DNA from: Chrysophaeum taylorii
Taxonomy: Eukaryota > Sar > Pelagophyceae > Pelagomonadales > Pelagomonadaceae
Assembly: GCA_029834535.1 (NCBI GenBank)
Contig: JAQMWT010000398.1
Span: 298,085 to 362,084, forward strand
Direction of reading: 5' to 3'
Length of the DNA stretch: 64,000 nt
Part shown: one piece after another, positions 3,901 to 57,349 of the stretch
How the letters are laid out: the number at the start of each line of letters is the position of its first letter
Position numbering within the stretch: the stretch's first letter is position 1
Position numbers and translations under genes: made by a program
The notes under the pieces: model-generated
What the model was told of the DNA's origin: nothing
Databases searched by the model: none
The model's input: the letters and a program-made list of their open reading frames with translations, nothing else

Positions 3901-4069
3901 GAATCTCGCGACCATCTTTCCGCATCGACTCCTTGACAGCGACAACGTCCCGCAAGTACGCAGCGCGCACCTCGTCCAGGAGCACATTCCGTCGCTTCAA
4001 CCGCTTCCGCAGCAACTCCAGTTCCTCCATCATCGTCTCCTGGTCCATCATCCCTCCGTCGGCCTCCAT
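953..4069 (-). CDS. Long coiled-coil protein, function unknown (two exons)
   Basis: Exon 1 runs 4069 to 3793 and exon 2 runs 3684 to 953 on the minus strand, about 1,000 residues in all. The 905-codon main frame opens with GTG, so its real start lies upstream. The first ATG of the upstream frame (4069) gives a protein beginning MEADGG, followed by a helical, charged segment. Joining across the intron completes a glycine codon and keeps the frame. The product is almost entirely heptad-rich coiled coil (Glu, Lys, Arg, Leu, Gln). A low-complexity basic/Ser linker interrupts it near the middle, a second coiled coil follows, and the tail is disordered and rich in Pro, Ser and His. No motor, kinase or membrane domain is visible. 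A cytoskeletal, centrosomal or tethering role would fit but is only a guess. Confidence is high for a gene and low for function. Confidence 0.75.
3685..3792 (-). other. Intron of the coiled-coil gene (108 nt)
   Basis: On the minus strand the donor is G|GTGAGT at 3792 and the acceptor CTAG at 3686-3685. Splicing joins ...EYG to IVEIVHSESKK in frame. Without it, exon 2 has no ATG start. Confidence 0.7.
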
Positions 4070-6103: not shown

Positions 6104-6994
6104 TCAAAGGAAATGGGGGGCGTTGCATTTACAGGTCTGGAGATTGCCTTGACAGACGCCCTCGAAGACGGGGTGGCGCGCGGCGAAGGAGGGGTCGCGG
6201 GGGGTGTTAAGGGTGGCGTGGTGGAGCATGGCGAGTCTCGCGGGGTCTCTTCGGACGGTCAAAAAAGCGTGGAGGAGCATCATGGAGGTCGCGGCGTCGC
6301 CGACCGCGTCGTGGGAGACCCCGGGAGGTCTCGGGTGGCCGAGCCAACACTTGGCGAGGTGGTCTTGACCAAAGTAGGCAAACTTGCGCCTCGCGGGGTC
6401 CCATACTTTGAAGAGGGGCGAGAGATCGAGCAAGGAGGCGAAGTCGCTGGGGGTCTTCAAGCCAAGCCAGGTCGCATCCTGTCCGACGTTCGTACCGACG
6501 AGTACCGCCGAGACAGGGAGTCGCGTTTTGAGAGCGGCAACGGCCTCCTCGATCGCGATGCCCTGGGAATCGATGAGCTCTCTCGTGATACCCGTGAGCG
6601 GCGTGAGGTACGACACGACGGGGGCCTTTGGCTTGACAAAAAGATTGAGAACGACTCGGAGTTGCTCGTCGACGAGTCCTATTTGAGCGACGGCGCGGTC
6701 TCTGTGCGTCGGCCCGGTCGCCACGCACTCGACGTCGAGCGCAAAGGTTGGTGCCGTCCGGGCCTCGACGACCGCCAGGAGCGCGTGCTCGCGCGACTCG
6801 GAGGGGGCGTCGAGGTCGTGGGAATAAGGGCAAGATTCCCCGTTGCGGCAACCCCCCGCGAAGAAGTGGCGGCACGGCACGCGCTTGCGCGTGTCGACGA
6901 CGGCGTGCGAGAACCGGCACGCCTCGCCGTGCATGCAGCTCCCGGCCAGAAAGTGTCGGCACGCCGGACGCCCATCGCTCCCGAAGGCGGCCAT
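6104..6994 (-). CDS. CCCH zinc-finger DEDDh 3'-5' exonuclease (REXO4/ISG20-like)
   Basis: 296 residues. Two CCCH fingers of C-X7-C-X5-C-X3-H spacing sit at the N-terminus (C12, C20, C26, H30 and C41, C49, C55, H59) and would bind RNA. A DnaQ-like exonuclease domain follows. Exo I is ALDVECV with D87 and E89. Exo II is GTNVGQDATWL with D173. Exo III is SHDAVGD with H228 and D233. All five DEDDh residues are present, so the enzyme should be active. The layout matches the REXO4/ISG20 group of RNA exonucleases, which act in rRNA processing or RNA turnover. Fingers placed before the nuclease are a less common arrangement. The ATG at 6994 is divergent from the TRM7 start at 7035, leaving a 40-base shared promoter. 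Confidence 0.88.
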   Translation of the reverse strand: MAAFGSDGRPACRHFLAGSCMHGEACRFSHAVVDTRKRVPCRHFFAGGCRNGESCPYSHDLDAPSESREHALLAVVEARTAPTFALDVECVATGPTHRDRAVAQIGLVDEQLRVVLNLFVKPKAPVVSYLTPLTGITRELIDSQGIAIEEAVAALKTRLPVSAVLVGTNVGQDATWLGLKTPSDFASLLDLSPLFKVWDPARRKFAYFGQDHLAKCWLGHPRPPGVSHDAVGDAATSMMLLHAFLTVRRDPARLAMLHHATLNTPRDPSFAARHPVFEGVCQGNLQTCKCNAPHFL

Positions 6995-7034
6995 CTCTCA
7001 GAAGCGGTCCGTTGAACTCGTCGTCGTCCCATCG

Positions 7035-7643
7035 ATGCGCGCGAGATCCGCCGGCAAGTTAGTCGACCTCGACGAGGCCTACGGTCTTTTCGAGGGGAAG
7101 ACGCGCGTCGTCGACCTCTGCGCCGCCCCGGGGAGCTGGTCTCAGGTGGTGCGGGAGCGCGCGCCCCGCGCGCGCGTCGTCGCCGTCGACCGCCAACCGA
7201 TGGCGAGCATCGAGGGCGTCGAGATCCTGCGCTCCGACATCACCACGCCAGCCACGGCCGACGAGATATTCCGCGCCCTCGGAGGTGCCGCGGCAGACCT
7301 CGTCGTATGCGACGGCGCGCCCGAGCTCACGGGACACCGCGACCTCGACGAATTCGTCCACGGACGCCTCGTCGCCGCGGCTCTCGATATCTGCGGCCGC
7401 GTCCTCGCGCCCGGCGGCACCTTCGTCGCCAAGATATTCACCGCGACCGACGCGCCTTTCCTGCGCTCCCAGCTTCGCCTCCTCTTTCCGACCGTCGAGG
7501 TCGTCAAGCCCGCCTCGAGCAGAGAACGCAGCTTGGAGGCCTTCGTCGTCTGCCGGGGCTTCGACCCGGCTTCTCTCGACCACCCCTACCTCCGCGACGG
7601 CGACTTGGGAACAACAGCAACAACTACATCCATATCATCCTAA
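7035..7643 (+). CDS. TRM7: FtsJ-family tRNA 2'-O-ribose methyltransferase, TRM7/FTSJ1 type
   Basis: About 202 residues. In the family, TRM7 methylates ribose at positions 32 and 34 of the anticodon loop using S-adenosylmethionine. The cofactor loop DLCAAPGSWSQV (27-38) has the GSW form typical of TRM7 rather than the GGW of SPB1 and bacterial RlmE. The catalytic K-D-K-E set is intact: K8 in SAGKL, D93 in VVCDGAPELTG, K133 in FVAKIF and E168 in RSLEAFVV. The frame stays open to 6843, but that extension overlaps the divergent exonuclease gene and does not resemble the family. With the ATG at 7035 the protein lacks the roughly 20-residue leader usual in TRM7. The stop overlaps the stop of the convergent next gene by four bases. 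Confidence 0.88.
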   Translation: MRARSAGKLVDLDEAYGLFEGKTRVVDLCAAPGSWSQVVRERAPRARVVAVDRQPMASIEGVEILRSDITTPATADEIFRALGGAAADLVVCDGAPELTGHRDLDEFVHGRLVAAALDICGRVLAPGGTFVAKIFTATDAPFLRSQLRLLFPTVEVVKPASSRERSLEAFVVCRGFDPASLDHPYLRDGDLGTTATTTSISS

Positions 7644-8386
7644 CACCGGACCTCGTACAGCACGAGCGACTCGGCGGGATTGGTTGGCGACCGCGCTACG
7701 AACCTCCGCTCGACGACGCGGCACGCGTCACGGAGGAGGACCTCCAAAAGGTCCCGGGGGGAGGCTCGCGGGGACGGGGCTTCGGACCAGTCCCGTACCG
7801 CGGAAAACACGTAGGCCACGCCCTCTGGCTCGAGATGTCTCTGGACTGTTTTGGCGAGCGGGACCACGTTCTCTGGATAGTAGACGCAGTCTGACGCGAC
7901 AACCACGTCAAATCTCTCCCCCAAATCGTCCGAATGCCAGTCGAGCCGGCACGCCGTGGCCTCGATTCGGTTCAGGTCGATGTTGTGCCGGAGATTCGAC
8001 ACGAGCCCCGATGGACCGTCTTCTTGCCCGTCCAAGTCCGTCATCACCACCCTCGCGTTCGCCGCCTTGCCGCACACGACGCCCACCAGTCCCACGCCCG
8101 CCCCGAGCTCCAATACCCTCCGCCCCTCGAACCGGTGCGCGTTCAGGGCGCACCATGTCGCAGCCCCGACACCACACGTCCACACGGCGTGCCCGAGTTT
8201 GCCTTCAGCGAACGACGTCTCGCGCACCGTCACGTCCATGCGACCCGCGACCAAAAACCGCCTGCCCTCGCCGGCCGTCGTCTCGATCGTGCACGTCCCC
8301 TCGCCCGCTTCTTCTTCTTCGAGGCAATAGTACTGCCGCGGCGGACCGAGCCGGACGGCCGCCAAGGCCACGACAGAAAACAGCAT
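7640..8386 (-). CDS. METTL21-like seven-beta-strand methyltransferase (Methyltransf_16 family)
   Basis: 248 residues. The S-adenosylmethionine loop is VLELGAGVGLVGVV and the post-motif II acidic residue is in VVMTDLDG. The family signature with an Asp before Tyr appears as VVASDCVYYPENV. Relatives methylate lysines, or occasionally other residues, of translation factors, chaperones and histones. The substrate cannot be read from sequence. The first 15 residues are hydrophobic and could be a weak targeting signal, or the start could lie further in. The gene is convergent with TRM7, and the two stop codons share bases in CTAA at 7640-7643. Confidence 0.8.
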   Translation of the reverse strand: MLFSVVALAAVRLGPPRQYYCLEEEEAGEGTCTIETTAGEGRRFLVAGRMDVTVRETSFAEGKLGHAVWTCGVGAATWCALNAHRFEGRRVLELGAGVGLVGVVCGKAANARVVMTDLDGQEDGPSGLVSNLRHNIDLNRIEATACRLDWHSDDLGERFDVVVASDCVYYPENVVPLAKTVQRHLEPEGVAYVFSAVRDWSEAPSPRASPRDLLEVLLRDACRVVERRFVARSPTNPAESLVLYEVRC

Positions 8387-8442
8387 AATATTATTATCCC
8401 GGATGGGTTTCGGACTCTTATAAAACTGAGAGGGTTAGCGAA

Positions 8443-8520
8443 CGTGCGCTGATCAAAGCAGCTTATTAGATTGGCGGGGGTGAGAGAGACCGGCGAACTG
8501 AAAGGAGAGTGGCGTGAGTG
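8443..8520 (+). repeat. Diverged fragment of the palindromic element's subterminal sequence
   Basis: The stretch around GATCAAAGCAGCTT...GATTGGCGG, followed by a GAGAG-rich stretch and AAAGGAG, matches the right arm of the 12-14 kb palindrome at about 14,150-14,215 with a few substitutions and a three-base insertion. It shows that the element family has more than one insertion in this genome. Confidence 0.6.
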
Positions 8521-9328
8521 GGGGCGGCAAGGCGCTAGCCTAACCGTCCGGGCGCCGCCCGCCAGGGATTCGGCGGCCGAGAGACGTAGGGGCATCTACC
8601 AGGGTTAGACCGCTAAAAACAAGGGGGAGGGTCTTATTGTTACCCAACACCACCACCCCCTGTTGCACGCACTGCCGGCCGATACGACAGGAGTGGGCAT
8701 CGTTTCTTCTTCTACTTTTTCTGGGCTAACAGCAGCGCGCGTCTTTTTTGGCACACGACAGACAGGCTACTTCTGCCGAGTGTCGCGTCATCGTCGTCGA
8801 GCCGGTGGCGCGGAGGGAAACACACCAAAACTACGGCAACAGAGAGAACAATCGTAGCAGACGGCGGCTTCGCATCAGGATGTAACGAGAAGAAAGAGGG
8901 TCTAGCAGCCTCTTGCTTCGCATCAGGGGTGGTTGTGTCGCGGTGGTGATCATCGTCGATGCATTTGCTCTACAGCGCGGTGGTCAGCGTGCTCGTTCTC
9001 GCGTCGTCGGTCGGCAGCACAATCCTCATAACACCACGTAATGACGATGGATGATGTCACGAGATCGGGGGTTCAAGGCACGCGACGCGACGAGGAAGAG
9101 TCGTCGTTCATGTCGTGCTCGCTAAATGGCGCGGCCGCGGTTGCTGTGGTGAATTTTTTTGATTTTTGTCGCGATAATGCTCGACGCCGCAAACCCATCA
9201 CACAAAAATATGGTGGTGGGAGACGACGACGAGGGCAACCAGGTAGGTGATCGCCAAATTTCTTTTTTTTTTTTTTTTTTTTTCTTATGACGGTGCTTTT
9301 TTTGATTTTTGTAAAACGAAAGGCGCGC
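8521..9328. other. Intergenic region with a long T tract
   Basis: No gene is recognised. A T run of more than 20 bases at about 9261-9283 lies 45-70 bases beyond the PABP stop, so on the transcribed minus strand it reads as poly(A). ATGs at about 9041 and 9110 open only short frames. Confidence 0.5.
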
Positions 9329-11695
9329 TCACTCGGCCGCCTGGGCCGCTTGCATTTGCGCTTGATGTTGCTTGAGCACCTCGAGAGCCTCGCCGACCTT
9401 CATGCGGAGCGCTTCCGGAGATTCGAGGAGGTGGAGGAGCTCCGAGTTGTCCATCTCGAGGAGCATGCCAGTGATCTTGCCCGCGAGGTCGGGCTGCGAG
9501 TGTTGGATGAGCGGGTAGAGGCGCTCGCCAATCATGTTCTTCTGGAGGGTGGGCGAGGCGTTGGCGAGCTCGGTGAGCGTGAGAGGGGGCTGGGCGGCGA
9601 CGGCGCGCTGCTGCTGTTGTTGCTGCTGCGGCATGGGGGGTTGCGGCGGCATGCCGGCCATCATGGCCTGCTGCGAGGCCACGGGGCCCCCTTGGGGCGG
9701 CTGCTGCCCCATCATCGCCTGTTGGGTCGCGAGCTGGGCTTGGGGTCCACCCGGCATCTGCTGAGCGCCCATGGCACCCTGCTGCGGCGGCATGGCGTTC
9801 TGGGCGTTGCGCGCGTTTTGGGTGTATTTGTACTGCTGGGCGCCCTGTTGCGCGTGCTGCGAACTGTTTCCGCGGTTTCTGTTCCGGCGGTTCTGGCCGC
9901 CGCCCTGGCCGCCGCCCTGGCCCTGCTGGATGCCGCCGAGCTGCGGCGCGCCGGCCATGGGCGGGTAAGGGGGCATCCCGTAGACGCCGCGCGCCATGGG
10001 GCCGACTCCTCGAAGGTCGCCGTTGCCGATAGGGCCTCGGCTCGGCGAGCCGCGGGCGATGACGTAGCCACCCCGGACGTTGCCCTGGATCGCCGGGCCG
10101 TGCGGGCCCGCCTGAAGCGCCTGAGGGGGCATCATCGGGTGCTGGGCCCCGGGCTGGTACATCATTGGCATGTAGGTCGCGCCGGGAAAGTTCGCCGGCG
10201 CGGCCATGTGAGGCGGCATGCCCTGCGCGCCCGGGGGGCCGCCCGCGGCGGGACCCATACCGTACGGCGCGACGTTCGAGCGGTGCTGCGCGTGCTGTTG
10301 TTGGAGCATCGCCCCTCGTTCCTCTTTTCGTTGCGCGAGCGCGACGAAGATGGGCTTGTTGTTGATGTGCTTGCCGTTCATCTCCTGCTGGGCCTTGGTT
10401 GCCTCGTCGGGGGTTGAGAAGCACACGAATCCAAAACCGCGCGACGCTCCCGTCTGCGGCTCGCGCATCACCCGCGCCGAGGTGATCGTGCCGAATTGCG
10501 AAAATTTCTCCCTCAGGTCGTCGTCGGTGATCGCATCGTCCAGATTTTTTACGAACAAGTTGACCCCCTGGTACTTTTTAATGCGTTCGAGCTTGGCAGC
10601 CTCGAACCGCTGCTTGAGCTCGCGCTCGCGCTCGACCTTTTTCTGCGCGCGGCCCACGAACAGCGGTGCCTTGAGCTCCATCTCCTCGCCGTTGGCGGGC
10701 TTTTCGTTCTCGTCGGTCGGGTTCTCGTCGTCGTACGCGGGAATCTTCATCACTCCATTCAACTCCTCGATCGCGTCGACGGCGCTCTCGTGCTTTTCAA
10801 AGTTGACCCAGCCAAACGCCGACCCCTCGGCAGCCGCTTCCTTCTCGGCCGCCTCGGTCTCCTCCCCCGCGATGCGACTCAAAATTTCTTCGGCCGCCGC
10901 CACCGCGCTCTCGTCACCCACCTCGATCGCGGCCTGCTTGCTCGCCTCGGCCTTGGCCGCCTCGGCGAGCCGCTCCTCGGCCGCCTTGGCGGCCGCCTTC
11001 TTGGCCCCCTCGACCGCCTTGGCGCTCGCCGGTCGCGGGGGCTGCACCTTGCACGAGGTGATCGCCCCAAACTTCTCGAACAGCTTCCGGAGCTTGACGT
11101 CGCCCCAGTCCGCCGGAAAGTTTTTCACGTATAGGTTGGTCCAGTCCGACTGGCCCGACCGGTCCGTTCTGCGCACGAAGTGGCCCACGTAGACCTCTCT
11201 GTCGAAGATCATCATCTTGTCGATCTTGGCGATCGCCTCGGCCGCCGCGTCTTCGGACTCGTAGTGCACGTACCCGTACCCCTGGGACCTTCCCTGATCG
11301 TCCGTCGCGACCTTGCACGACAAGATGTTCCCAAACAGCGAAAACGTGTCGTAGAGCGCCTTGTGGTCGATCTTCGGGTCGAGGTTCTTGACGAACACGT
11401 TCCCGACCCCCGACCGCCGTAACGTCGGGTCACGCTGCGACCACATGATCCGGCACGGCTTCCCCTTGATCAAAGTGTAGTTCATCTGGTCCAAAGCCCG
11501 CTCCGCGTCCGTCACTTGGTTGAAATTCACGTAGGCGTAGCCTAGGCTCCGACGCGTCACCGCGTCCCGGCACACGCGGATCGACGCGACTTGCCCGACG
11601 GTGTTGAAGATCTCGAATAACAGTCCCTCGGACGTGTCGGGGGCGAGGTCGCCCACATACCTACGAGACACCATCATCATCGTCATCATCCTCAA
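9329..11695 (-). CDS. PABP: Cytoplasmic poly(A)-binding protein (four RRMs plus MLLE)
   Basis: 788 residues, longer than the usual 570-660. RRM1 is about 12-87, RRM2 99-175, RRM3 187-350 and RRM4 379-455. RNP motifs are clear: YVGDLAP and LGYAYVNF in RRM1, FVKNLDP and GYGYVHY in RRM2, FVKNLDD and RGFGFVCF in RRM4. A Gln/Pro/Met/Gly-rich linker follows. The last 85 residues form the MLLE domain (KITGMLLEMDNSELLHLLES), which in the family recruits PAM2-containing translation and deadenylation factors. RRM3 is split by an Ala/Glu/Lys-rich insert at about 218-292 and a second acidic insert at about 320-342. The protein binds mRNA tails and promotes translation and stability. Several nearby Met codons leave the exact start uncertain by a few residues. 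No intron is needed. Confidence 0.93.
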   Translation of the reverse strand: MRMMTMMMVSRRYVGDLAPDTSEGLLFEIFNTVGQVASIRVCRDAVTRRSLGYAYVNFNQVTDAERALDQMNYTLIKGKPCRIMWSQRDPTLRRSGVGNVFVKNLDPKIDHKALYDTFSLFGNILSCKVATDDQGRSQGYGYVHYESEDAAAEAIAKIDKMMIFDREVYVGHFVRRTDRSGQSDWTNLYVKNFPADWGDVKLRKLFEKFGAITSCKVQPPRPASAKAVEGAKKAAAKAAEERLAEAAKAEASKQAAIEVGDESAVAAAEEILSRIAGEETEAAEKEAAAEGSAFGWVNFEKHESAVDAIEELNGVMKIPAYDDENPTDENEKPANGEEMELKAPLFVGRAQKKVERERELKQRFEAAKLERIKKYQGVNLFVKNLDDAITDDDLREKFSQFGTITSARVMREPQTGASRGFGFVCFSTPDEATKAQQEMNGKHINNKPIFVALAQRKEERGAMLQQQHAQHRSNVAPYGMGPAAGGPPGAQGMPPHMAAPANFPGATYMPMMYQPGAQHPMMPPQALQAGPHGPAIQGNVRGGYVIARGSPSRGPIGNGDLRGVGPMARGVYGMPPYPPMAGAPQLGGIQQGQGGGQGGGQNRRNRNRGNSSQHAQQGAQQYKYTQNARNAQNAMPPQQGAMGAQQMPGGPQAQLATQQAMMGQQPPQGGPVASQQAMMAGMPPQPPMPQQQQQQQRAVAAQPPLTLTELANASPTLQKNMIGERLYPLIQHSQPDLAGKITGMLLEMDNSELLHLLESPEALRMKVGEALEVLKQHQAQMQAAQAAE

Positions 11696-24440: not shown

Positions 24441-24537
24441 GCAAACGTGCGACCGTCCGTTGGATCTTTCTTTTACGAAACGACCCAGGGGCGGCGATGA
24501 GGCGGCGATGATACCCCACTCCGAAGAAGAAGAAGAA

Positions 24538-24577
<40 letters not shown>
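24441..24577. promoter_or_regulatory. Shared divergent promoter region with GAA repeat
   Basis: The only DNA between the BCS1-like and RPC2 start codons is 137 bases. About 50 of these (24,523-24,575) are GAA/GAG repeats ending next to the RPC2 ATG. On the other strand they are TTC repeats. No TATA box is obvious. The call rests on position alone. Confidence 0.45.
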
Positions 24578-24578
<1 letters not shown>

Positions 24579-27500
24579 TGAGCTGTTGCGACTACGCCAA
24601 GGCGCGGAAGTTCGTCGGGCCCGAACGTCCGCCCCTCGGAGCACCGTACGTTCCCAACAAGTGGGAGCTGCTGCCGCACTTTTTGCGGCTGATGAAGCAG
24701 CACATCGCATCGTATGACTACTTTGTGAACACGGAAATCAAAAAGGTGGTGGGGGCGGCATCGAACCGCATCGTCCGGTCGGAAGTGGACCCGAACTTTT
24801 TCCTGTGCTACACGGACGTCTACGTGGGGTCGCCGTCGATCGAGGAAGACGCTTTCACGACGACAGAAGCGACGCCGTTCGAGTGCCGGCTCAGAGACGC
24901 CACGTACTCGGCGCCGATCTACGTCGACGTCCGGTACCGTCGCGGAGCGCAGATCGTGACGATGCCGAAGGTGGCGATCGGGCGCATACCGATCATGCTC
25001 CGGTCGTCCAAGTGCGTGTTGTCGGGCAAGTCGGACGCCGAGCTGGCCGATATGAAAGAATGCCCTCTCGATCCGGGCGGCTACTTTGTTGTCAAGGGCG
25101 TCGAGAAGGTCATTCTGATGCAGGAGCAGTTGAGCAAAAACAGGTGCATCATCGAAGACAACAACGGACCGTGCGCGACGATCACGAGCTCGACGCACGA
25201 AAGAAAGTCGCGTTGCTCGATTTTTGTCAAGAATTCAAAAGTGTTTCTGCGACACAACACGGTCGGGGAAATTCCCGTGGTTGTCGTGCTGAAAGCGATG
25301 GGCATGGAGTCCGACCAGGAGATCTTCGAGCTGGCCGGGATCGTCGACGCCAGCGTCCGCACCCAGAAGCAAGCTCTCGAGATGATCGGCGAAGCGATCC
25401 GGGCAAAGCAAGAAACGCGAAGGCCCCTCTCGGCCGAGGACGAGGCGAGGGAGGTGTTGGCGAACGTCGTGCTCAGCCACGTCCCCGTCGTCGACTACGA
25501 TTTTACGGCGAAGCGAGCCTACATTGGCTACGCGACGCGACGCGTCCTCGCGGCCGAATGGGACGACAAAGATTACTACGGCAACAAACGGCTCGAGCTC
25601 GCCGGCCAGTTGCTGAGTTTGTTGTTCGAAGATTTGTTCAAGCGATTCAACGCCGACCTCAAGCGTTCTGCGGAACTCGTGCTCCAAAAGCAAAACCGCG
25701 CGGCCGTCTTCGATATCGTGAAATCGACCGTCTGGCAGACCTCGACGATCACGCAAGGCTTCGTCCACGCGATTTCCACCGGCAACTGGGTCCTCAAGCG
25801 ATTCAAGATGGACAGGGCGGGCGTGACCCAGGTGTTGTCGAGATTGTCCTACGTGAGCGCCATCGGGATGACGACGCGCGTCAACTCCCAATTCGAAAAA
25901 ACGCGCAAAACATCCGGACCCCGCGCCCTCCAGCCCTCGCAGTGGGGCATGCTCTGCGTCGAGCCTGGCGCGCTCGTCCTGCTCGCGGACGGCTCGTGTC
26001 GCCGCCTCGATTCGCTCCAGGCTCTGGGACCTCGAGCGGCGCCCGAGATCACCGTCGTGGATCCTAGCACTCGTGCCTCGAGCCCGTCTTCGATTGCTGC
26101 CTTCCAGCGCGCCGATGCTCGAGACTACGGCCGTTCGGTGCTTCGGGTTACGACCGCCTCCGGTCGGAGCATCGTCGTCTCGGAAGACCACCAATTTGCG
26201 GTGCCTGGCGGCAGCTTCGTTCCCGCGGGCAGTCTACGGGTCAACGACCGCGTCCTTGTGCTCCCCACGCCCTTGCCAGAGGAGGAGGAGGCCCACGAGG
26301 ATCCCGTCGATACGATGCCGACAACTCGGACTCCCGCGACCGTCTCGTCGTCGGCGGCTCCTCCGAGTACCCACGCGGCGGCGGCGGCGGCGGCGCTTGT
26401 GCTCGACCGCCAGACGTTTTTGGCACGAGTCGCTGATGCAAATATTTGTTGTTCAGACTCCCGAGCCACGGCCGACGCTGACGAACTTGAACAGGCTGGC
26501 TTACTACCGTTGACGGCAGACGATCGTCGTCTGGCGACACTCGCGGCCCTCGTCGGCTACAATCTCTGCGATGGCCACATGATGGGAAAATCGGCAGAAT
26601 TCTATGTGGGCTGCATCGAAGATGGCGAAGCTTTGCGCGATGCGGCACGGAGCCTAGGTGTGGGTGCTGCTAGTGACGGTTTCTGGCACGATTCGTTCAA
26701 CCCTGACGAGGGTCGACAAACTGAACGCCGCGAGTTTCGAATCGACCTCTCCGGTGCTCTGTCGACCCTCCTGCTAGCGCTCGGAGCTGTTGCCGGGAAC
26801 AAGACCCACAAGTCAATTGCTGTACCCGAGTTCGTTGTGGCTGGCAGCCGGGAAGTCAAAATTTCTTTTCTGTCGGGCACGTTCGGCGGCCGTGGTAATG
26901 GTGGTGCGATGTGGTATATTCACAAAGAAGAAAAAGACCGCGACGAGACGAATCGCTCATCCACCCGTTGGCGTGTGACCTCGCCAACTCTCAAGTTCAG
27001 CAAACAGTTGTCGCAAGTGGACAGCTTGAATGCCTATCTCGAGACCATTCGAAACCTACTCCACCAATTTGGTGTCGAGACGACGAGCTCTGTCTACTAC
27101 TACGAAAAAGACCCCGATCGCGCCGTCGCAGCTCTCGACGAGGACGCGGACCCTATCGTGCAGCGCCAGTTGGATCTCTCGAGGAACTATGACAATTTGC
27201 TACGGTTCGCAAGAATCATTGGCTACAAGTGGTGCAAGGATAAGCGCAACAAGATGCTGATTGCGAGCGAGTACGTCCGCTACTGCGCCAACGTCGCCAA
27301 GATCACCGAGGAGCAGACCCAGCGACGCGCCTTGGAGCTAAACAATCAAGGTCTTGGCTCCATGAAAATCTCTCGCAGACTTGGTCTTTCCGAGGGTGTT
27401 ATCCGATCATGGCTCGGTCGCAAGGAAAATATCATCCGGCAGACCAAGACGAAGTTCCCGGAGAGCAACATCGTCGTCGTCGTAGAGTGGGACCAGTGGC

Positions 27501-30026
27501 TCCGCGACACCCGAGCTTGTGTCGAGACCTCCACGCTCTATGACGCCGTCCAGACGATTGAGACCCTCAAGTTGGCCGAGTGCCCGGTAGTCTGCGACCT
27601 CACAACGACGAGCCACGTGCACACGTTCGTGTCGAACGGCTTTGTAACTCACAATTGCCCGGCCGACACGCCCGAGGGAGAAACGTGCGGCCTCGTTAAG
27701 AACTTGGCCCTCCTCGCGCACGTCACGACCGACGCCGAGGTTGAGGTCGTCCAGCGCACGTGCTTCGACCTCGGCGTCGAGCAGCTCGGCCACCTGGGGG
27801 GCGCAGACCTCAACGCCAAGAACCGCGGCTACCTCGTCTTCCTTAACGGTCTCGTCGTCGGCGCCTGCAGCCGCCCTCACAAACTCGTCGCCGCGCTTCG
27901 CCGCATGCGCCGCTCTGGCAAGATCGGCGAGTTCGTCAGCGTGTATGCGCACGACGTCCATGGCGCCATCTACATCGCCTGCGACGGGGGCCGCGTCTGC
28001 CGGCCCCTCATCATCGCCCCGAACGGACGCTCGCGCCTCACGCCGCGAATGCTCGCCGAGGCCCTCGGCAAAGCGCGCCAGCGAAGACCGCCGCGCCTAC
28101 AACAAGAACAACAACAACGAGCCGTCGTCAACAAAAAGGTCGTGGTCGGTGGGGGACGAAGCACCACCGACGACGATCAGCAGCGGGATAAAAAGGCGTT
28201 GGAAGAAGCCGAGGTGAAGACGAAGACGCTCGAGTACCTCGTCGAGCGGGGAGTCGTCGAATACGTCGACGTAAACGAGGAGAACAACTGCCTTATCGCC
28301 CTCGACGAACGTGGACTGACGCCCGAGCATACTCACGTCGAAATCGACCCCGTGACCGTCCTGGGAGTCGTGAGCGGGCTCGTCGCCTTCCCCCACCACA
28401 ATCAGTCGCCGCGCAACACGTACCAGTGCGCGATGGGCAAGCAGGCGATGGGCATCGTCGCGACCAATCACTACGAGCGCATGGATTCGCTCTTGTATTC
28501 GCTCATCTACCCCCAAAAGCCCATGGTCAAGTCGCGCGTCCTCGACCTCATCAGCTTCGACTCGCTCCCGGGGGGATGCAACGCGAGCCTCGCCGTCATG
28601 TCGTACTCGGGCTACGATATCGAGGACGCCGTCATCCTCAACAAAGCCTCGCTCGACCGCGGCTTCATGCGGTGCCTCGTCATGCGCAAGCACCAGACCT
28701 CGATCAAGCGCTACGCCAACAACACGAGCGACCGCACGCTCCGCCCGCCCCCGGCGGCGAACTTCACGCAGGGCGAGAACGACAGCCGGTACCGCCGCTT
28801 TGCCGCGCTCGGCCACGACGGTATATGCCGCGTCGGCGAAAAACTCCAGGACCACGCCATCATGGTCAACCGCGAAGTCCCGATCGAGGACCGCTCGGCG
28901 ATCGACGCCCCCCCCAAGCGGCCCGACCCCCCCCCGAAGCGGCCCGCCGGATCGCGCGCCGCGCCGCGCGCTCTCCCCGCGCAGCCAACGATCGCCTACA
29001 AACCCCAGCCCCTCTCGTACAAGGGCGCGATGCCGAGCGTCGTCGACCGCGTCCTCCTGACGTCCAACGAGAACGACTCCTTCCTCGTCAAGGTCATGCT
29101 GCGCCAAGTCCGACGCCCCGAGATCGGCGACAAATTCGCTTCGCGCCACGGCCAGAAGGGCGTCTGCGGCGCGATCGTGCCCCAGGACGACATGCCCTTT
29201 TCCGACCTCGGCGTTTGCCCCGACCTCGTCATGAACCCCCACGGCTTCCCGAGCCGCATGACCGTCGGAAAGATCATCGAACTCGTCGCCGGCAAGGCCG
29301 GCGTCTTCGCCGGCCGCCAGGCCTATGGCACGGCTTTTGGCGAGGACCACGGCTCGGCCGACCGCGCGCGAGAGGCGTGCGAGGCTCTCGTTTCCTACGG
29401 CTACTCGTACGTTGGGAAGGACATGCTCTACTCGGGCGTCAGCGGCGAGCCGCTCCGCGCCTACATCTTCATGGGTCCCGTCTTCTATCAAAAGCTCAAA
29501 CACATGGTCATGGACAAGATGCACGCGCGCGCGAGGGGACCGCGCGCCCAACTCACGCGCCAGCCGACCGAGGGTCGATCGCGCGACGGCGGCCTCCGTC
29601 TCGGGGAGATGGAGCGCGACTGCCTCATCTCCTACGGCGCGGCCAATTTAATTACCGAACGCCTTATGATCTCCTCGGACGCCTTCGACGTCTACGTCTG
29701 CGAGAAATGCGGCCTCCTCGGCTACTCGACCGTGAGGGAATCTTGTTCTGTCTGGGGGAAAAAAAAAAAAAAAACCTATGTTCCTATTCTTAGGCGCCCC
29801 CGGATTCTGAACGCTCGACCTCCACCATGCACACGAGCTGGTGTCAGAATTGCCGCTCGGACGAGTTTATGGCGCGCATCCGCATTCCATATGCGTGCAA
29901 ACTTCTCTTCCAAGGTGCTTTCTCTTTTTGTGTGCCCTCTTCCTCCTCGTGTGCTTGACGCCCATTTGTCGCGCAGAACTCCAGAGCATGAACGTGACAC
30001 CTCGATTAAAGTTGGAAAATATGTAG
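24578..30026 (+). CDS. RPC2: RNA polymerase III second-largest subunit RPC2, containing an intein
   Basis: Exons 24,578-29,731, 29,794-29,914 and 29,977-30,026 encode 1,774 residues, of which 567 are an intein. The mature protein would be about 1,207 residues. It resembles Pol III RPC2 (POLR3B) rather than Pol II RPB2, as shown by PNKWELLPHFL, VNTEIKKVV, KRLELAGQLLSLLFEDLFK, PSQWGML, DTPEGETCGLVKNLAL and the end PYACKLLFQELQSMNVTPRL. Catalytic-site blocks include SYSGYDIEDAVILNKAS and RRPEIGDKFASRHGQKGVCG. The C-terminal zinc site (CEKC...CQNC) and the clamp-tail sequence appear only after two 62-nt introns are removed. A Gln-rich insert lies at about 28,090-28,200. The protein forms the Pol III active centre for tRNA and 5S rRNA transcription. 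Confidence 0.93.
25955..27655 (+). mobile_element. Intein in RPC2 with LAGLIDADG endonuclease and HTH domains
   Basis: 567 residues (RPC2 precursor 460-1026), inserted between QWGML and CPADTPEGE. Residue 1 is Cys and the splicing motifs are complete: block A CVEPGALVLLADGS, block B VSEDHQF (H79), block F CPVVCDLT (D548), and a C-terminal HN followed by Cys+1. A homing-endonuclease region of the dodecapeptide type fills the middle. Its first motif is ALVGYNLCDGH (198-208, with the Asp). Its second is FLSGTFGGRGNG (305-316), where Arg313 replaces the usual Asp. A helix-turn-helix-like segment, MKISRRLGLSEGVIRSWL (470-487), precedes block F. A Glu/Ala/Thr-rich linker (105-150) follows block B. 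Protein splicing should work. The endonuclease is probably impaired. Confidence 0.93.
29732..29793 (+). other. RPC2 intron 1 (62 nt) containing an A tract
   Basis: Phase 0, donor ACC|GTGAGG, acceptor TTCTTAG|GCG. It contains an A run of about 16 bases. Reading through it gives a Lys run and an unrelated tail, while splicing restores a family-like C-terminus. Confidence 0.85.
29915..29976 (+). other. RPC2 intron 2 (62 nt)
   Basis: Phase 1, donor CAAG|GTGCTT, acceptor CGCGCAG|AAC, with a pyrimidine-rich interior. Splicing joins KLLFQ to ELQSMNVTPRL, which is the conserved RPC2 terminus. Confidence 0.88.
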
Positions 30027-32828
30027 CACCGCGTACTTAAGAAGCAGGAACACCTACCTAAGAAGCAGCAAAGTCTGGGCGGTCTGTCTGCTAAGTCTGG
30101 GCGGTCTGCTGCTCTAGATGAACGTACGTGTGTAGGCGTAGTAGTTTTTTCCCAGATCACGGGCCGAACTCACACTGGCGGAACGATCGATCGATCTTTA
30201 CGACCCGGCGGCGCACGTGGGCCGTCCCAAGTCCCGTGCGCACCGCCTCGCCGGACATCCGCCCTACAGCTTCTTCTTAGCTCGTCGTCATTCTGCCTGT
30301 CCTCGAGCCCTCTTCAATGGCAACTCGCCCCGTCCACTGAGAACGCGTCAACGCTCTGGTGATTGGGAGAAAAGAGATTGTGCATTGGCGGTGGAGCCAT
30401 GAACCGCGACTCAAGGCGGAATCTTCGTGCAGCGAACAGCGTTCGTCCGATAGGGCGCGAGGCTTTGGACTCATCACCTCCTTGCTTGCGCCTCAAAACC
30501 AGAACACCATCACTTTTACACCGCGTCAACTTCGCAGTGAGCAATACTATCAGACTCATCATCTTGATGCTCCGCTCCGTTGATTGATCCACAAGTGCTG
30601 TATGTTCTTGGTCGATCGTACCACTTCTCCCCTGAAGTGATTTCCTCCTACGGCATGCCAATCCGGCCGAGAACAGAATTACCGCACGCACCTTTGATGA
30701 TATGCCGCTATGCCCAGCCTAGCACAATCACGAGCACGCGGCTTCGACTTTTCAACAGGCTACCTCTTTCTCTCTCGTATCCGTTCACCGGCGCGCTCGG
30801 GTTTCGGGTCCTACCATTCATGCAATGCAAGGTCTCCGTCATCTCTTGACGGTCTTATCGTGACGCCAACCTTACTCCCTCCGGGCTTTTCCGGCCGGCG
30901 CCCTAGCGCTCTGTGGCAAACAAACGCCAAAGCTTCACACCCAAGGCTCTTGCGCGGAGCTGCTATCCTCCAGGCAGCATTGCACCACTGTCCTACCGGA
31001 CCTACTACTCAATCCTTTGCTCAACGTTTTACACCGACAACCACCGGCCCCCTTGACACCAAAGCACCGTCCCTGCTGACGCCACGGGCTCGACGTAACA
31101 CGCATGCATCTACGAAGAAATACTCACTTCTCCATCGGCTCGAAAACGCCATCACTGCTCAAATCGAGACCGCCCAACACAAAGCCCGTGCTCGCCACTT
31201 CCAACTGCCGCCAGCAATCTCGTATTCATGCCAGGTATTTATTTTGCCTTGGACCACGGCGTACAAACCTGATCTTCATGCAACCCCACCCATACTCTCG
31301 CGTTGGAAACCAATAGTGGACGAGCGCTGATTGCAGCTACTCCCCCACCCCCCAACCAGCCCTCGCAGGTCTCGTTCATGTCCGTACGAACGACCTTCCG
31401 CCACCCAACACGTTTGATCACCATCGCGCTCACTGCCGCGCAACCGACGCCATGTCAGCCTCAAGGTCACCAATGATATGACATGGTGCTCATCACACGG
31501 TTGACATGTTCGCGAAAGCACGCATCCCCTTCCATATTGTCTTGAACCCTTTTTCGACATGACCACTGCCGATCTGATCGCTAATTGTCGCCGACTCACC
31601 ACCGTGCACACAGTCACAGTTGGTCGGAAACGCAAGGTCTCGACGTTCTCTCAGTCGTCACATACGCCGAATCGCAGACCCCCAGACGTTCGCTTTGTTC
31701 CTGCACGATTACCCGCCAACCCAGCAGACTCTGTACTGTCGATATCGAGGCGGCCATCGTCTCGCCACAGTATTCTCGTCATGCAAAGACATGGACAACA
31801 GTGCTGGACTCATGGGCAGTAATGGCGCCTCTGGACCTGTACAAGAGCGACTCCAGGAATTTGGCGGCTGTAAACGCTCTGTTGTGGAAATCGTTGGTGA
31901 ACGCACAACGCTTTCCTTGGCCTCGTCCCTCTCGTCGAGCAGCGCTTAAGTGATCAGGTTTTTGGCGACGGATGGGCACTCGCAATGTTGTTGATGCTCA
32001 CTCTGCGACTGTGACGCGCGTTTTTCGCACCCTCAGCATCATCATCATCCTTATGGGATGATGCAATCGTACCCTCCTTGCAGGGTATCCAAACGGAGAC
32101 CCTCACCAACGCACCCTCGAGATGTCATCGACGGGTGCGCCAAGACGCGCACGTGCAGAGTGCTGGTTATCCATGGACCGCTCTAGTGTCTGCGCTCAGG
32201 TGCTTGGCTCTGAGTCACGTACCTCCCTCCCCTTTGCCACTCATGCTGTCTTGTCCTCTTCTCCACCCTTTTCTTGTCCTCTTCTCCCTGCGCCTTCCTC
32301 GCGTACATCTCGTCAATCTTTGCCCACCTTCAGCGTCCTCACTCCTCTGCGCCTGCATTTTCGCCGTGGGGGCTTCTCATGTAGGTCCGTCGTCGCATGA
32401 AAAAAAAAGCGGCACAACCGTCGCAGAAACTACTAGATTATATATTGTTTGCGAGCTATACTCGTAAAGAAGGCGGCTGGTAGCGACGAAGAGGGCATGC
32501 ATCGCGCCGTCTTTGAGGGGAAACGAAGGGGTACTAGCTGTCCGTCCTGCTTTTTACATAGACGACGCGGGATCACCCCCCTTTCCCTCAAGCGCGCCAC
32601 TCGTATAATTTTTGTTCAATGCCCATCGGAGGCGAATCATCCCTATCTTCTCCGACATTCACAGAAGGCCAATAAACACACCTTCTCTCTCTTCCACAAA
32701 ATCGAGGTCGACATTTACTCGCCCCCCAGAACACAGCAGTTGCCTATTCAAAAGAACCGTTGGGTGACCGGTGTAGTTGAAGTTCAATTAAGGTTTGGAC
32801 CAGCAGGTGGTCCATCGCGGTGTCGGAG
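30027..32828. other. 2.8-kb unassigned region, C-rich on the plus strand
   Basis: Several overlapping frames of up to about 206 codons occur, for example 30,710-31,330 (plus), 31,276-31,635 (minus) and 31,585-31,953 (plus). None shows a domain I recognise and none dominates. The plus strand is notably poor in G compared with the genes around it. This could be relic retroelement or recently decayed coding DNA, but I cannot support a specific call. Confidence 0.4.
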
Positions 32829-42703: not shown

Positions 42704-42848
42704 TAGATGTTGTATTGAAACTTAACCCTTCATGCTGAAACGGAACTACTACATAACGGACCTCAGCTTCTTCGCGGCGCATTGATCGCGGCGCAGAAGA
42801 ACAAGGCGATGACGGCGCTTGCCTCCCGTGGCGATCAATTGTAGCAGG
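42704..42848. promoter_or_regulatory. Short promoter region of the giant gene
   Basis: Only 145 bases separate the upstream stop from the giant gene's ATG at 42,849. The first part is AT-richer and may hold the upstream gene's 3' end signal (TTGTATTGAAACTTAA). The call rests on position only. Confidence 0.35.
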
Positions 42849-45800
42849 ATGCCGACGTACGCCATCGCGAAACACGACTTCAAGGGAGAGACGGCCACCG
42901 AGCTGTCCTTCGTTGCGGGGGACAAGATCGAGGTGTTGGCCGAGAAGGGGGACTGGTGGAAGGGACAGTTGCGCAATGGCAAGAAGGGCTTCTTCCCGCC
43001 GACCTACTGCGACATCGTTCGGGAGGAGGCCCCGGCTCCCGCGGCACCGCCGAAGCGCTCCAGCGTTGCCGACCGTGCGGCCATGTTCGGCGGCAGTGCG
43101 AGGACGTCGACTCCCGCTCCAGCTCCGGCAAAACGGCCGAGCGGCGGCGAGGGCACCGTGGCGGCGCGCAGAGCCATGTTCGGCGGCAGCAAGCCGCCGC
43201 CGCCCAAGCCCGCGCGGCAGGAGTCCAAGCCGCCTCCGCCAGCGCGGCAGGAGTCCAAACCGCCTCCGCCAGCGCGGCAGGAATCCAAACCGCCTCCGCC
43301 AGCGCGGCAGGAGTCCAAACCGCCTCCGCCAGCGCGGCAGGAGTCCAAACCGCCTCCGCCAGCGCGGCAGGAGTCCAAACCGCCGCCGCCTTCGCCGGCG
43401 CGCCCTCAATCGAGGCAACCGCCGCCGCCGCCTCCAGGCCGGCCAAAAACGACGTCCCAGCCCCCGACCGCGCCTGCGGCGGCCCCGCCAGTTCAGGCAC
43501 CCCAGCCCGTCGTCGCGCCACAGCCCGTCGTCGTGCCACAGCCGGTCGCGACTTCGACTAAAGGTGGAGCCCCGCCGCCGCCGCCGCCGCCTCCTCGGCC
43601 CAGCGAAAAAGAACCGGAAAGATTCGTCAAGGCCCTGTACGATTTCGAGGTGAGTCGTATGGAGGAGATGGCCCTTAAGCGAGGTTCGGTGTACCGCGTG
43701 CTCGCGGAACGGGGCCAGTGGCTCGTCGGCATCGACGAGGCGACGGGCGCGCGCGGCGAGTTTCCGGGAAATTATGTCGAGGCATGCGCGGCGCCCTCGC
43801 AACCGCAGAAGCAGCAAGCGGCACTGGCGGCGCCATCGACGTTCGAGTTCGCCGCCACGGGCTCGACGGCGCCTCGCGCCGACGCGTACCAGCTCGGCCA
43901 GCATCAGGTGTACCGGTTTGGTGCGTTCCTCGGGGCGTTGGGCGGGTCGCCGCGGCGGATCGACGTGCCAGGCGGCGACGAACCAGGCGCGCCGGTGACA
44001 GCGCTGCGGGTGTCGGCCGAAGTCGTGCGCGTCGCCCTCTCGCGCATCCCGCGGTCGGTGTTGACCGCGCAGCTCGTGGCCACGCTCGACGACTTCTCCA
44101 AGATGTGCGAGCGCGTCGGGAGGCTCGTCGGCGCGAGCGACGCCGCGGGGCTCCACGACATCGCGTGCGCGTGCGCAGCGAAGATCGCGAGGTCGCAGCC
44201 TGGCGAGTTGATGATGTTTCCGGGGGGATGGCTGCCGTGGCGCGAGGAGGACCGTCGGGCCTCGAAACGGAAGGGGGACGCAAACCCCCACCACCAAGGG
44301 ATCGACGACACGCACAGGCCGTCGGCCGAGGGCATGATCGCGCCGCCGCCCTACAGGTTCGAGGCGAGAGTGCTCATATATCTCGCGAGACGGCTGCCCG
44401 ACAAGGCCAACAAGTTTACGTTCTGCGTCGTGAACGCGAACGTCGACGCCGGGTCGATCGACCTCGACGAGTGCGGGGTGTCGCGTTACCACGGGCTCGA
44501 GCCGTGCGAGCGGACGGGCTTGGTGCTCCAAAAGCTCGTCGTCGAGCTCGAGGACGTGCCTCAGGAGAAGTTGATCGACGGCGGGATTTGGTTTGTGTTG
44601 TATCGGCTGCTGATCTTCCCGCACGCGGCGCACGACGCGACGCTGCTGTACGAGCGCGTCCTGCCCAACCTCAACGGCCTCCGGCCGATCGGCGCCAACC
44701 CGTCGCCGCGCGCCGCGATGCGACGGCCCGTGCCGACGGCCGACGCGTCGCACGCCAACTGCGTCATGGAGGCCATCGCCCACGCGGCGGTCCTCGCAGA
44801 CGCGCCGCGCGTCGTCGCCGACGGCATCACGACGCAAACGAGGCTCCAGCTTCTCAAGATCGCCGACGCCGATGTCCGCAAGGCGCCGAGTCTCTCGTCG
44901 CGCGACGCCGAGACGCTCGATGTCGCGTGCCGCCTGGTTGCGCGCGACTGCGCCAAGGTCGCGAGTCTCAAGGACACGCCCGTGGGTGGCGACATGTTGC
45001 GCGACGCGCTCGAGACGGTCGAGCGCGTCGACCTACGGCGCCTCGCGCTCGCGGCCGACGCTCTCGGCGACCTCAGCCACGCGGGCGAGTGGGCCAAGAA
45101 ACTCGAGGCAGCTCGGTCGCTCGCCGCCCCCGGCGGCGCGTGCTTCCCCATGTTCGGGCGGTTTCGGCGCGAGTACGACGTGGATCTCCTCGCGGGCGGC
45201 GCCCTCGTGCCGCCGATCGAGCTGCCCGTCGAGCTCTCGAGCGTGCCCGACCAGGTCGTCGACTACAACTCGGCGACGACGGCGCTGCGACGCGCGCTCC
45301 ACGTGTGCACGCTCCTCGCCAACCAGGCCCACCTCATCCGCCACACGTACCTCCTCCGCTGCGCGGTGTTGCAGCACGTCCTGACGCGCGTCCTCCCGCT
45401 GCCGCTGCCGGTCGACCGGCCCGACGGCGCGTCGTCGTGCTTCTGGCGATGCTTGCCGATGCGCTACGAGACGCAAATCGACCTCCTCAGCCTCTTGCGG
45501 ATGATCTCGCGGCACTTTACGTGCGCCGCGCTGTCGCTCCGGCTCACGCGGAGCTTCGACGCCGCGCGCATCCTCACCACGGGCTGCGTCGCCATCATCG
45601 CCGACGCCGTGCTCCGGCGCAAGGCGTGCGACGTCCCGAGCTGGCTGTCGCTCCACTACGCGGGCCAGGCCGACGGCCCGACCAAGCCGTTTGGGTTCGA
45701 GTTTGGGCTCTACGACGTCGAGAGCCAGTTTTCGGCGTTCACCGAACCCCACCTCTGCGTCGCGCGGACGGCCGTCCTCGACTACTTCGCGTCGATCGGC

Positions 45801-48800
45801 CGCGTCGTGCCCGGCAGGGGCCACATGCTCTTCGCGTTCGAGCGCGCGGCGACGATCGGCGCGGGCGAGAAGGCCTTGCTTTCGCAGCTCTGCCTCCAGA
45901 CGGGCTTTCCCGTGCTCGAGCAGCCCGAAGTGTACCTCACGGGCGAGATGCCCGAGTTGATCGACTGCTACCCCGAGCTCGAAATGTTCCGCGACGTCGT
46001 CTTCGCCTTCAAAGCGCTCCAGGCGCCCACCTCGGACGCGCTCCCGCCGGTCCGCGCGTGGCGGCCCGTCGACGCGGCGCTCAAGTGGGCGTCCAAGACC
46101 GTGACCGTCAAGCCGCGGCACAAGCGCGAGCCGAACTACCAGGTCCCGCCGCGGCCGCTCGTCGTGCGCGCGTTCGGCAAGGTGCTCGAGATCCAGTACG
46201 ACCACGGCATGCTGCTGCGCAAGGACGAGGCAACCAAGATCGAAGGCGGCGGCGTCGGGGTCGCCGAGGAGGCGCGCGTGGGCCACCGCTCGAAAATCCA
46301 CCAGTTTCTCGATTTTATCGGGCTGGGAAAACTCCCGCGCGCGCCGCCGAGCAAGGGCGACCCGTCGGTGCTCGTCGGCCAAAAGGTCCACACCGAAGAA
46401 GACATCCTCTTTGTCCGCCACCTTCCCGACTTCGACGGCATGCTCAACGCGAGAGACTGCGAGCTCATGCTCTCGTACCTCACGGCGCCCTACGTCCGCG
46501 TGCCGCTGCTTCTACGCTTCTTCGCCGACCACGCGAGGCTCCGAGCTCTCGCGTCGGCCGATCTGCGCGACGTCCTCGACGCGTGCCTCTTCGAGCCGTC
46601 GTTGTGGCGCCCGCCAGACCAGGGACCCCCGCTGGGCTGGATCCCGACGATGGACCGCCGCGAGCTCGCGACCCCCTGCGGATTGCTGTTCAACGAGCTC
46701 CGGTGTTCGCCGTCGGGCGTCGCGGCCGCCCTCGACGACATGCTGGACGCGGCCCTCGAGCTCGATACGGGCCGCTACTCGCCGACGACGGCGCCCACGG
46801 TGCTCTACGTCCTTCGCCTCGTCGTCCGCGTCGAGGGCTTCTGCCTCTTCCTGCTCCGCAAGCACGGTTACAAAGACCACCGCCCGCCCCACGAGATGCG
46901 ATGGCTCGGCGCCGTCCGCGGTCTCGACTGCGATCCCGCGACGCTCGAAATCCTCGACGCTTCGGTCAAAAGGTGGCGCAAACGCCTCGACGCCGTCGCC
47001 TTTCCGACCCTCGCCCGCTGGGTCCGCTTCTCGACCAACGCCCAGCACCTCGGCCACGCCTGCGTCGTCTACGCCCACCTCGCCTACCTCTACCGGAACG
47101 TCCTCGAGGACTCGCTCGACCGCCGCGCCGTCGCGACGCTTCTCACGGCGCAGATCTTCCTCAACGTCCACTACGCCTACGACGCCGAGCCCGAACCCCC
47201 GCCCGCGATCGGCCCCGACGGCAAGGGCGCCGGGACGCGCCGGGCGGCCTCGCGCGCCAAGTTCGTCGAGCGCGCAAACGACGAGCTCGGCTTTTCGCAG
47301 ACGGAGATCCAAGACGTCTTCGCGCGACACCGCGGCGGCGTCATCCGCTGGCTCGACGCGCACCAGCTCACCGACCGTTCGGCCGTCCTCGAGGCCGTCG
47401 TGCGCACCATCACCTTCACGCGCCAGGCCGAGGAGGAAACCGAGGACGCCGCGCTCGTCACCGGCGCCGTGCGGAAGCCGGCGCGCGCCAAGGCCGCCGG
47501 TTCGGGCTCGGGCTCGGACGCGACCTCGCCTACCGGCAGCAGCAGCCAGGGCGGCGTTGTTGTTGTTGTCGGCAAGGGAGCCAGCGGAGCGGCGTCCGCC
47601 GCGGCGCCCGGCGTTTTGTCCGGGTCGGGCGCCGCCGCCGCGCGCCGGGGCAGCACCATGACGACGGTCGCGGCGTCGCGCCTCGCGCAGCGCCGCTGGG
47701 GCACGATGGAACGACCGGGGTGCGCGGGCCGGTACGTGCCCGACACGGAGCGCGCCGTCATCGCCGACGCGACGCGGGTGGTCCCGAGCGAGGCCTTCGA
47801 AAGCTGGCTCCGGCGGGTGACGACGACGGCCGTCGACACCGAGGTCAACGCGCAGCTGGGTGAGTTCACGCTCAAGAAGCACGCGGTGCGCGCGCTCGAC
47901 GCGCGCCTCCAGCGGATTACCGACTTTGTCGACGTCTTCGGGCCGCCGCACCCGGAACGTCGGGTCCAGGCCGCCGAGGTCCGCAACACGACGCGCCGCT
48001 CGTGGCTCCGGCTGGTCGGGCGGCGCCACGACGTCCAGCACTGGGACGCCGACCGCGACCGCCAGGCCGAAATGCCGCGCGTTCACTCGCACTACGCGCC
48101 GACCAACCGCGACTGGGTCGCCAAGGTCTTCGAGCCGACGAGGAGGTACTTCTTCTCCGACGGCGACAAGTTCCACTTCGCGGGGCCCCCGAACGAGGTC
48201 TACGCCGTGCTGTGTTGCTACCACCACGTCGCCGTCGACGAGTCGGCCTTTTTGGACGAGGACGACTTCGTCTCGTCGGTCGACGAGGCGGCGGATCTCG
48301 AGGGTCCCGGAGGAGGAACGGAGGAGGATGAGGACGAGGACGACCCCGAACGGGAGGCCGAGCTCGCGGCGGCGCAGTACGCCGACGACGAGGCCGACGA
48401 CGAGGCGACGAGAAAGCTCAAGGCCAAGGCGCGCGACAAGGCGCGCGAGGAGGCGCGCAAGGAGGCCCTGCGGCGCTCCAAAGACAAGGAAGCCTCGGCC
48501 AAGGAGCGCGCGGCCCTCGTGATCGCCGTCAAGGCCGACGAGCAGCGCGAGCGCGAGGAGAAGCGGAACGAGGCCGCCGAAGCAGCCAAGGAAAACTCGA
48601 AGAAGAAGAAGAAGAAGAAGTCGTCGTGGTTTTCGTCGTCGTCGTCGTCGTCGTCGGCTGTCAAGGACGAGAGCTCGGGGGGCGACGGCAAGGTCGTGGT
48701 GAGAACGCTCAAGGAGATCGTGGTGATGAAGGACCCGCCCGCCGTCCACGTGTACAACGTGATCGAGTACGGCCGGCGCCTGTACCGCACGCTCGTGTTC

Positions 48801-57308: not shown

Positions 57309-57349
<41 letters not shown>

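Follow-up and report, generated by a model that had tools for sequence, protein, structure and literature searches.

The RPC2 gene of this alga, encoding the second-largest subunit of RNA polymerase III (Pol III), contains an intein which, by its insertion site and its phylogenetic grouping, is an archaeal-type allele in a eukaryotic gene. Our reading, which we hold to be probable, is that an archaeal intein of the polymerase fork site was horizontally transferred into a Pol III gene, most likely by a giant virus, and that it has kept splicing while its endonuclease is dead.

The position of the insert was first considered in the window, i.e. the whole stretch of 64,000 nucleotides analysed. 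The insert (25955-27655, exactly as delimited by an earlier sequence-only reading) consists of 567 codons in frame and without a stop, with QWGML on its left and CPADTPEGE on its right, inside a single open frame of 1842 codons (window 24512-30040). Both extein halves match RPC2 above any other polymerase of the PDB: for the N-extein the score is 519 bits with 7a6h, the RPC2 chain of Pol III, and 202 bits with the highest-scoring RPB2; for the C-extein it is 733 bits with RPC2, 475 with archaeal and 438 with RPB2 chains. These scores identify the host gene as RPC2, in agreement with the earlier assignment. Two 62-base GT-AG introns near the 3' end would restore the usual RPC2 C-terminus, with the end of the gene at 30026. 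The features, all on the + strand, are as follows:

24578..29731, +, exon 1 of RPC2 (second-largest subunit of Pol III), intein included; from the frame and the best PDB match, RPC2, with a predicted splice site
24578-25954 and 27656-29731, +, RPC2 exteins within exon 1
25955..27655, +, intein, 567 codons, Cys1 to His566-Asn567, then Cys+1; from sequence reading and profiles
25955..26266, +, N-terminal splicing domain (residues 1-104, with Cys1 and the block B SEDH containing His79), its end placed by eye
26279..26386, +, linker of low complexity and predicted disorder (pLDDT <50), residues 109-144
26495..27274, +, LAGLIDADG endonuclease domain, approximately residues 181-440, both ends placed by eye
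26570..26572, +, codon of Asp206, the motif 1 catalytic Asp, kept
26891..26893, +, codon of Arg313 (CGT), at the motif 2 catalytic position in three of six alignments, acid lost
27323..27424, +, putative helix-turn-helix (residues 457-490) of the endonuclease tail; from HTH_68, model and alignment
27515..27655, +, C-terminal splicing domain, residues 521-567, ending NGFVTHN; start set by eye
29794..29914, +, predicted exon 2 of RPC2, between the two 62-base GT-AG introns
29977..30026, +, predicted exon 3 of RPC2, ending ELQSMNVTPRLKLENM, then stop

RPC2 apparently has introns of its own near the 3' end, and one might take the insert for a further spliceosomal intron, or for an assembly artefact. 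Either is barely credible. The four placements that remove the insert exactly give TG-AT, GC-TT, CG-TG and GT-GC ends, and no GT-AG, GC-AG or AT-AC boundary excises 25955-27655 exactly; moreover 567 codons are free of stops and the segment matches archaeal inteins over its full length. Against an artefact there is also the single genome match, inside a contig of more than 362 kb.

The host assembly comprises 70.8 Mb in 697 contigs. Since one of them (C697) carries a plastid-type rpoB adjoining an rpoC1-like frame, and a match to the RuBisCO large subunit (rbcL) in a 488-codon frame, the host is by gene content a plastid-bearing eukaryote, which supports the "likely alga" of the earlier reading. 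The intein and the RPC2 N-extein have one match each in the genome, so that no empty RPC2 allele is seen in this assembly. No further intein was found in the host genome with the window intein protein as query; the Pfam intein model gave zero matches there, missing even the RPC2 intein itself, so that its negative carries no weight. Nuclear RPB2 and RPA2 were not found in the host genome, perhaps due to introns. Elsewhere in the window, two adjacent long frames of 2300 and 2549 codons occupy 42819-57375, one with an SH3 domain and one with DUF3638 and DUF3645. GC content is 0.42-0.47 over 58001-64000, compared to 0.63-0.76 over 38-58 kb, and no Pfam family matched, at E 0.001, the frame of 509 aa at 59909-61438.

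The splicing residues, all of which the earlier reading had listed, can be read directly: Cys1, a block B S-E-D-H with His79 (Ser being at the usual Thr position), His566-Asn567 and Cys+1. An in-frame insert at a conserved site with these residues is an intein. Profile support for the splicing parts is real but lies near the thresholds: NCBIfam intein_Nterm scores 24.9 bits on the intein alone and 23.1 within the whole frame (cut-off 24.5), intein_Cterm 15.2 and 16.1 (cut-off 15.6), and Pfam Intein_splicing 27.9, below its cut-off of 35.8. An AlphaFold model of the intein, built with 10 sequences, is mostly confident (mean pLDDT 78.8) and has the predicted Hint splicing fold. Its PDB matches are inteins, TliVMA first, then PI-PfuI and PI-SceI among others, with E down to 1.1e-11; whole-chain TM to endonuclease-bearing PDB inteins is just 0.22-0.26 (rmsd about 20), and single splicing domains superimpose at rmsd 2-3. 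The low-complexity linker is missing from the four relatives aligned with it.

Protein splicing is thus very likely intact, to judge from the residues and the predicted fold. The RPC2 precursor would be translated whole, intein included; Cys1, His79, His566-Asn567 and Cys+1 would then excise the intein and join the exteins into RPC2. Retention of the intein as a splicing-based switch on Pol III activity is highly improbable: nothing from this analysis favours it, and its one supporting point is that fork sites lie close to the polymerase active site, according to the portions of Goodwin 2006 (PMC1635734) available to us.

In the endonuclease domain, both LAGLIDADG helices are predicted by the model (residues 193-206 and 299-310), only the first with a catalytic acid at its end. 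Motif 1 reads LVGYNLCDG and retains Asp206, as had been noticed from the letters. Motif 2 reads FLSGTFGGRGNGG, whose GGRGNG had been read as placing Arg at the catalytic position. Arg313 occupies that column in the alignments of 46, 21 and 10 rows; in those of 9, 9 and 5 rows two residues are treated as an insert and Asn315 takes its place. The identity of the replacing residue therefore held in three alignments of six, and an Arg outside the catalytic column, which had been named beforehand as a refutation, occurred in the other three, yet with Asn in the column; the disappearance of the acid stands in all six. The spacing from Gly308 to Arg313 is five residues, which we take to equal that of Gly15 and Asp20 in I-CreI. 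Among the relatives, 41 of 45 retain Asp or Glu in this column, the exceptions being L022 (Asn), L023 (Ala), L030 and L038 (both Lys); the first two are Asgard inteins, and L022 has lost the motif 1 Asp as well. The motif 2 helix reads K-I-S-F in the window intein against K-R-E-F in relatives, a stretch conserved in 11 of the 12 rows, fork-site and viral, that group with or beside it in the 21-row alignment (L059 has Q-R-E-F).

From these alignments the loss of the motif 2 catalytic acid is clear. Losing one of the two LAGLIDADG acids abolishes double-strand cutting, so the break needed for homing should no longer be made, and homing activity is very likely dead. It is very improbable that the endonuclease is still active and the intein mobile, whether because Arg or Asn is tolerated or because some other residue substitutes: the intein does retain its tail, the Asp of motif 1 and the conserved stretch GY..CxxK, and the model is mostly confident, but no alignment gives an acid and two further conserved residues of the motif 2 helix are altered. 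The retained tail contains the putative helix-turn-helix (HTH_68 at E 0.0019, below the cut-off of that profile; model helices 469-476 and 480-492), which aligns in relatives.

Decay of the domain beyond the acid is weakly suggested by residue conservation. Of the residues invariant in Asgard inteins, the window intein keeps 42/66 in the splicing parts and 44/95 in the endonuclease and tail (p 0.04), compared to 38/66 and 51/95 in the virus described below (p 0.63). With residues invariant in both Asgard and DPANN inteins the counts are 23/32 and 20/35 for the window (p 0.31), and 24/32 and 28/35 for the virus. That the intein was "caught while losing" homing activity was not borne out: a single copy with no close relative gives no timing.

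To place the intein, a pattern of His-Asn before CP..[DE]TPEG was searched in one genome per species for 84,980 prokaryote species. Nine matches were obtained, in records labelled Heimdallarchaeota, Borrarchaeum (2), Helarchaeota, Nanoarchaeota, Woesearchaeota, "archaeon" (2) and "bacterium" (1), the intein of the last grouping with DPANN inteins. Both junctions lie in one frame in seven of the nine; L007 is truncated at the end of its locus, and in L008 (also L021, the rpoB intein of the MAG labelled "bacterium") the N-terminal part is interrupted by an in-frame TAA, which may reflect sequencing error or decay. A profile built from eight of these nine fork-site inteins of archaea aligns with the window intein over its entire length at 255 bits, in a database of one sequence. 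By BLASTP the Helarchaeota intein scores 205 bits against it, three other Asgard inteins 183-196 and four DPANN inteins 135-172. The window intein has the archaeal fork-site position, before the Cys of CP.[DE]TPEG; in the archaeal L059 the motif reads CAIETPEG. It would thus be of the type found at the fork site in subunit B of the archaeal RNA polymerase, a LAGLIDADG intein with a helix-turn-helix tail, at the same residue in Pol III. The sequence-only reading, right as to the intein, had recognised neither this archaeal site identity nor the putative helix-turn-helix tail, nor the Asgard and viral grouping described below.

In a wider search the family was found in at least 16 of the 227 genomes of the phylum to which the Helarchaeota genome belongs (Asgard; E up to 1e-40) and in at least 21 of the 371 genomes of that to which G006 belongs (DPANN; E up to 1e-60). 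The fork site proper, with junctions checked, is occupied in at least 6/227 Asgard and 4/371 DPANN genomes; all these counts are lower bounds, few candidates having been scored per genome. The remaining family members presumably lie in rpoA', RtcB and rpsL, as judged from flanking motifs (for RtcB also from NF038162). One more Asgard (G010, locus L036) carries a wider-family intein at a neighbouring Cys of rpoB, at TPEGPN/C.../CGLVKN (slashes mark junctions), the position deduced for Dictyostelium RPC2-a. In two Borrarchaeum loci (L024 and L026) the rpoB N-exteins are 98% identical and the same-site inteins 60%, which suggests replacement or exchange of inteins between lineages.

Viral relatives were obtained by profile-guided scans of viral_contigs. 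The first gave IMGVR_UViG_3300003890_000058 (L016), whose RPB2 frame (3390-10751, 2453 codons) contains three inteins at three sites; the first of them, at TPEGEN/C, belongs to the family of the window intein (355 bits). A later scan gave 17 viral loci, of which, besides L016, just L081 and L082 (two contigs giving one and the same match, its intein at RNAYQ/C) are end to end, the others being partial; a further scan, which yielded five loci, added no new end-to-end match. L016 and L081 are probably giant viruses, since both are filed as viral and the L016 polymerase is eukaryote-like. The top six matches among predicted viral structures are RNA polymerases of giant viruses (Pithovirus LCPAC304, Hyperionvirus, Marseillevirus LCMAC101 and Cedratvirus, two proteins being listed twice), matched as polymerases with no subunit or site implied; the first four have TM 0.67-0.70 by query length and rmsd 6.6-8.2, all between predicted structures. 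Bodo saltans virus has inteins in both large polymerase subunits, seemingly without active endonuclease, according to the part of its description available to us (PMC5871332).

Two exact-codon patterns revealed no full-length viral intein at the exact site of the window in viral_contigs. The pattern N/CP..[DE]TPEG gave two matches there, both by chance, and a narrower one none; HN/CG.VKN gave eight, of which seven were chance readings and one genuine (L054, on the contig of L016). Single-protein searches of viral_contigs, phages and plasmids gave no close relatives, and with the intein as query the sequences of solved structures yielded one weak match (E 0.39). A viral RPB2 frame of 1012 aa (L089) contains a small intein without endonuclease, at the fork site or one residue from it, in an extein lacking the Pro of the usual CP.

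Trees were built from several sets of inteins, and midpoint-rooted for drawing only. In the 46-row tree, the window intein groups with five Asgard fork-site inteins and L016 (support 100/99); in a two-virus tree the group has eight members, the window intein, five Asgard rpoB and two viral RPB2 inteins (100/99). It persists when the virus is removed (100/98) and when the endonuclease or the splicing part is used by itself (97/99 each), and falls to 78/89 when the very divergent third intein of L016 is added (21-row tree). By these trees the window intein is grouped with fork-site alleles rather than with inteins of other genes; as two viral inteins at other sites lie inside the group, site alone does not define it. 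A constraint placing the alga with DPANN alleles instead gave p 0.013, and one uniting all same-site inteins without the viruses p 0.0009, both sets having been named after the trees were seen. Within the group, the alga joins the Asgards with 49/0, and the other two orders have p-AU of 0.38 and 0.55. The window row has a long end branch and an unusual composition; in a 19-row tree it was flagged with L016 as two long branches meeting (66/19), and this tree was rebuilt without each. L028 (304 residues) was left out of every tree, and the 46-row tree is without L075 and L076 (split matches), L078 (second intein, in the L062 RtcB frame) and duplicate loci. The 19-row, 21-row, part-only and two-virus trees use 7 of the 34 other-gene rows of the 46-row tree; the third L016 intein is in the 21-row tree alone, and L021 was left out of the part-only trees.

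Identity between the alga and four Asgards is 28-30% for inteins and 31-32% for N-exteins; intein similarity is not above extein similarity, so that no recent donor is present in the sample. Third-position GC of the endonuclease is 0.63, compared to 0.79-0.92 in 63 extein windows of equal size; for the splicing parts it is 0.72 (N-terminal) and 0.79, smaller extein windows ranging from 0.70 to 0.94. The low value of the endonuclease fits an arrival later than the host gene, and could instead reflect weaker codon selection in a decaying domain.

These data bear on vertical descent, in which an intein in the rpoB of an Asgard-like ancestor would have passed to the Pol III copy at eukaryogenesis, been lost nearly everywhere else and survived here as a relic with a dead endonuclease. 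The residue is identical to that of Asgard alleles, the grouping is with these rather than with DPANN alleles, and intein and extein divergence are about equal in the four alga-Asgard pairs. We nevertheless regard it as very improbable: the intein is present in just 6 of 227 Asgard genomes as a lower bound, the codon usage of the endonuclease is unadjusted, the 60% against 98% of the two close Asgards is a sign of exchange, viral kin lie inside the same group, and a dead endonuclease could not maintain the intein by homing. We prefer a virus-borne route to direct transfer or to descent from an archaeal ancestor; the intein would have reached RPC2 horizontally, a giant virus being the most likely carrier. 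Once there it may persist because, in a conserved site of an essential gene, only exact deletion is tolerated, an argument made in the sections of Goodwin 2006 (PMC1635734) available to us.

What is of interest here is that a fork-site intein of a eukaryotic gene shares its exact residue with archaeal alleles and has viral relatives within the gene family. It looks like a natural case of splicing retained while homing is lost, and the entry of inteins into nuclear genomes is now testable by sequence at a single defined position of RPC2, RPB2 and viral RPB2. Among the matches listed in a literature search (titles and openings of abstracts, with subscription journals mostly uncovered), none reports a nuclear gene that carries an archaeal rpoB allele. 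Algal polymerase inteins as such are not new, that of Chlamydomonas RPB2 being older.

Among known systems, the closest in kind are the archaeal rpoB fork-site inteins (L005-L013, L022-L026, L028 and L059). They share with the window intein the residue, a similar length and the order of parts (splicing, LAGLIDADG, tail with the putative helix-turn-helix), with 24-30% identity end to end for eight of them; they differ in belonging to the single archaeal polymerase rather than to Pol III, in that most keep both acids (L022 and L023 excepted), and in that the aligned ones are without the low-complexity linker. The viral RPB2 inteins of L016 and L081 fall in the same tree group with the same parts, but lie at other RPB2 sites and keep both acids. 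Archaeal RtcB inteins (NCBIfam NF038162) belong to the same wider family, with 127 bits across the whole window intein, but have another host gene and form a separate tree group.

For nuclear polymerases, the part of Green 2018 (PMC5784728) available to us tabulates inteins of fungi and Amoebozoa. An intein of Phytophthora ramorum RNA polymerase III is mentioned in an available passage of PMC7399828, citing Goodwin 2006 (PMC1635734); the accessible part of the latter describes a viral relic in Phytophthora ramorum. According to that same part, polymerase inteins are mostly not close to one another, and the fork inteins Bde RPB2 and Ddi RPC2 are outside the main cluster, without close relative; Bde RPB2-c and Ddi RPC2 both fall in the fork domain, at alignment positions 843 and 853 respectively. 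In the window RPC2, the Cys that follows the intein lies 10 residues before the next one, and from the two legend positions we infer that the window site is RPB2-c, 10 residues upstream of RPC2-a; an RPC2-a allele, probably inserted before the Cys of CGLVKN, was rejected on this ground. The Dictyostelium intein (Ddi RPC2-a) likewise lies in the fork domain of the Pol III second subunit, with an endonuclease described as possibly degenerate in the accessible text of Goodwin 2006 (PMC1635734), but at a site that would be 10 residues downstream, whereas the Batrachochytrium intein (Bde RPB2-c) would occupy the site homologous to that of the window, in a Pol II gene; both were compared by site.
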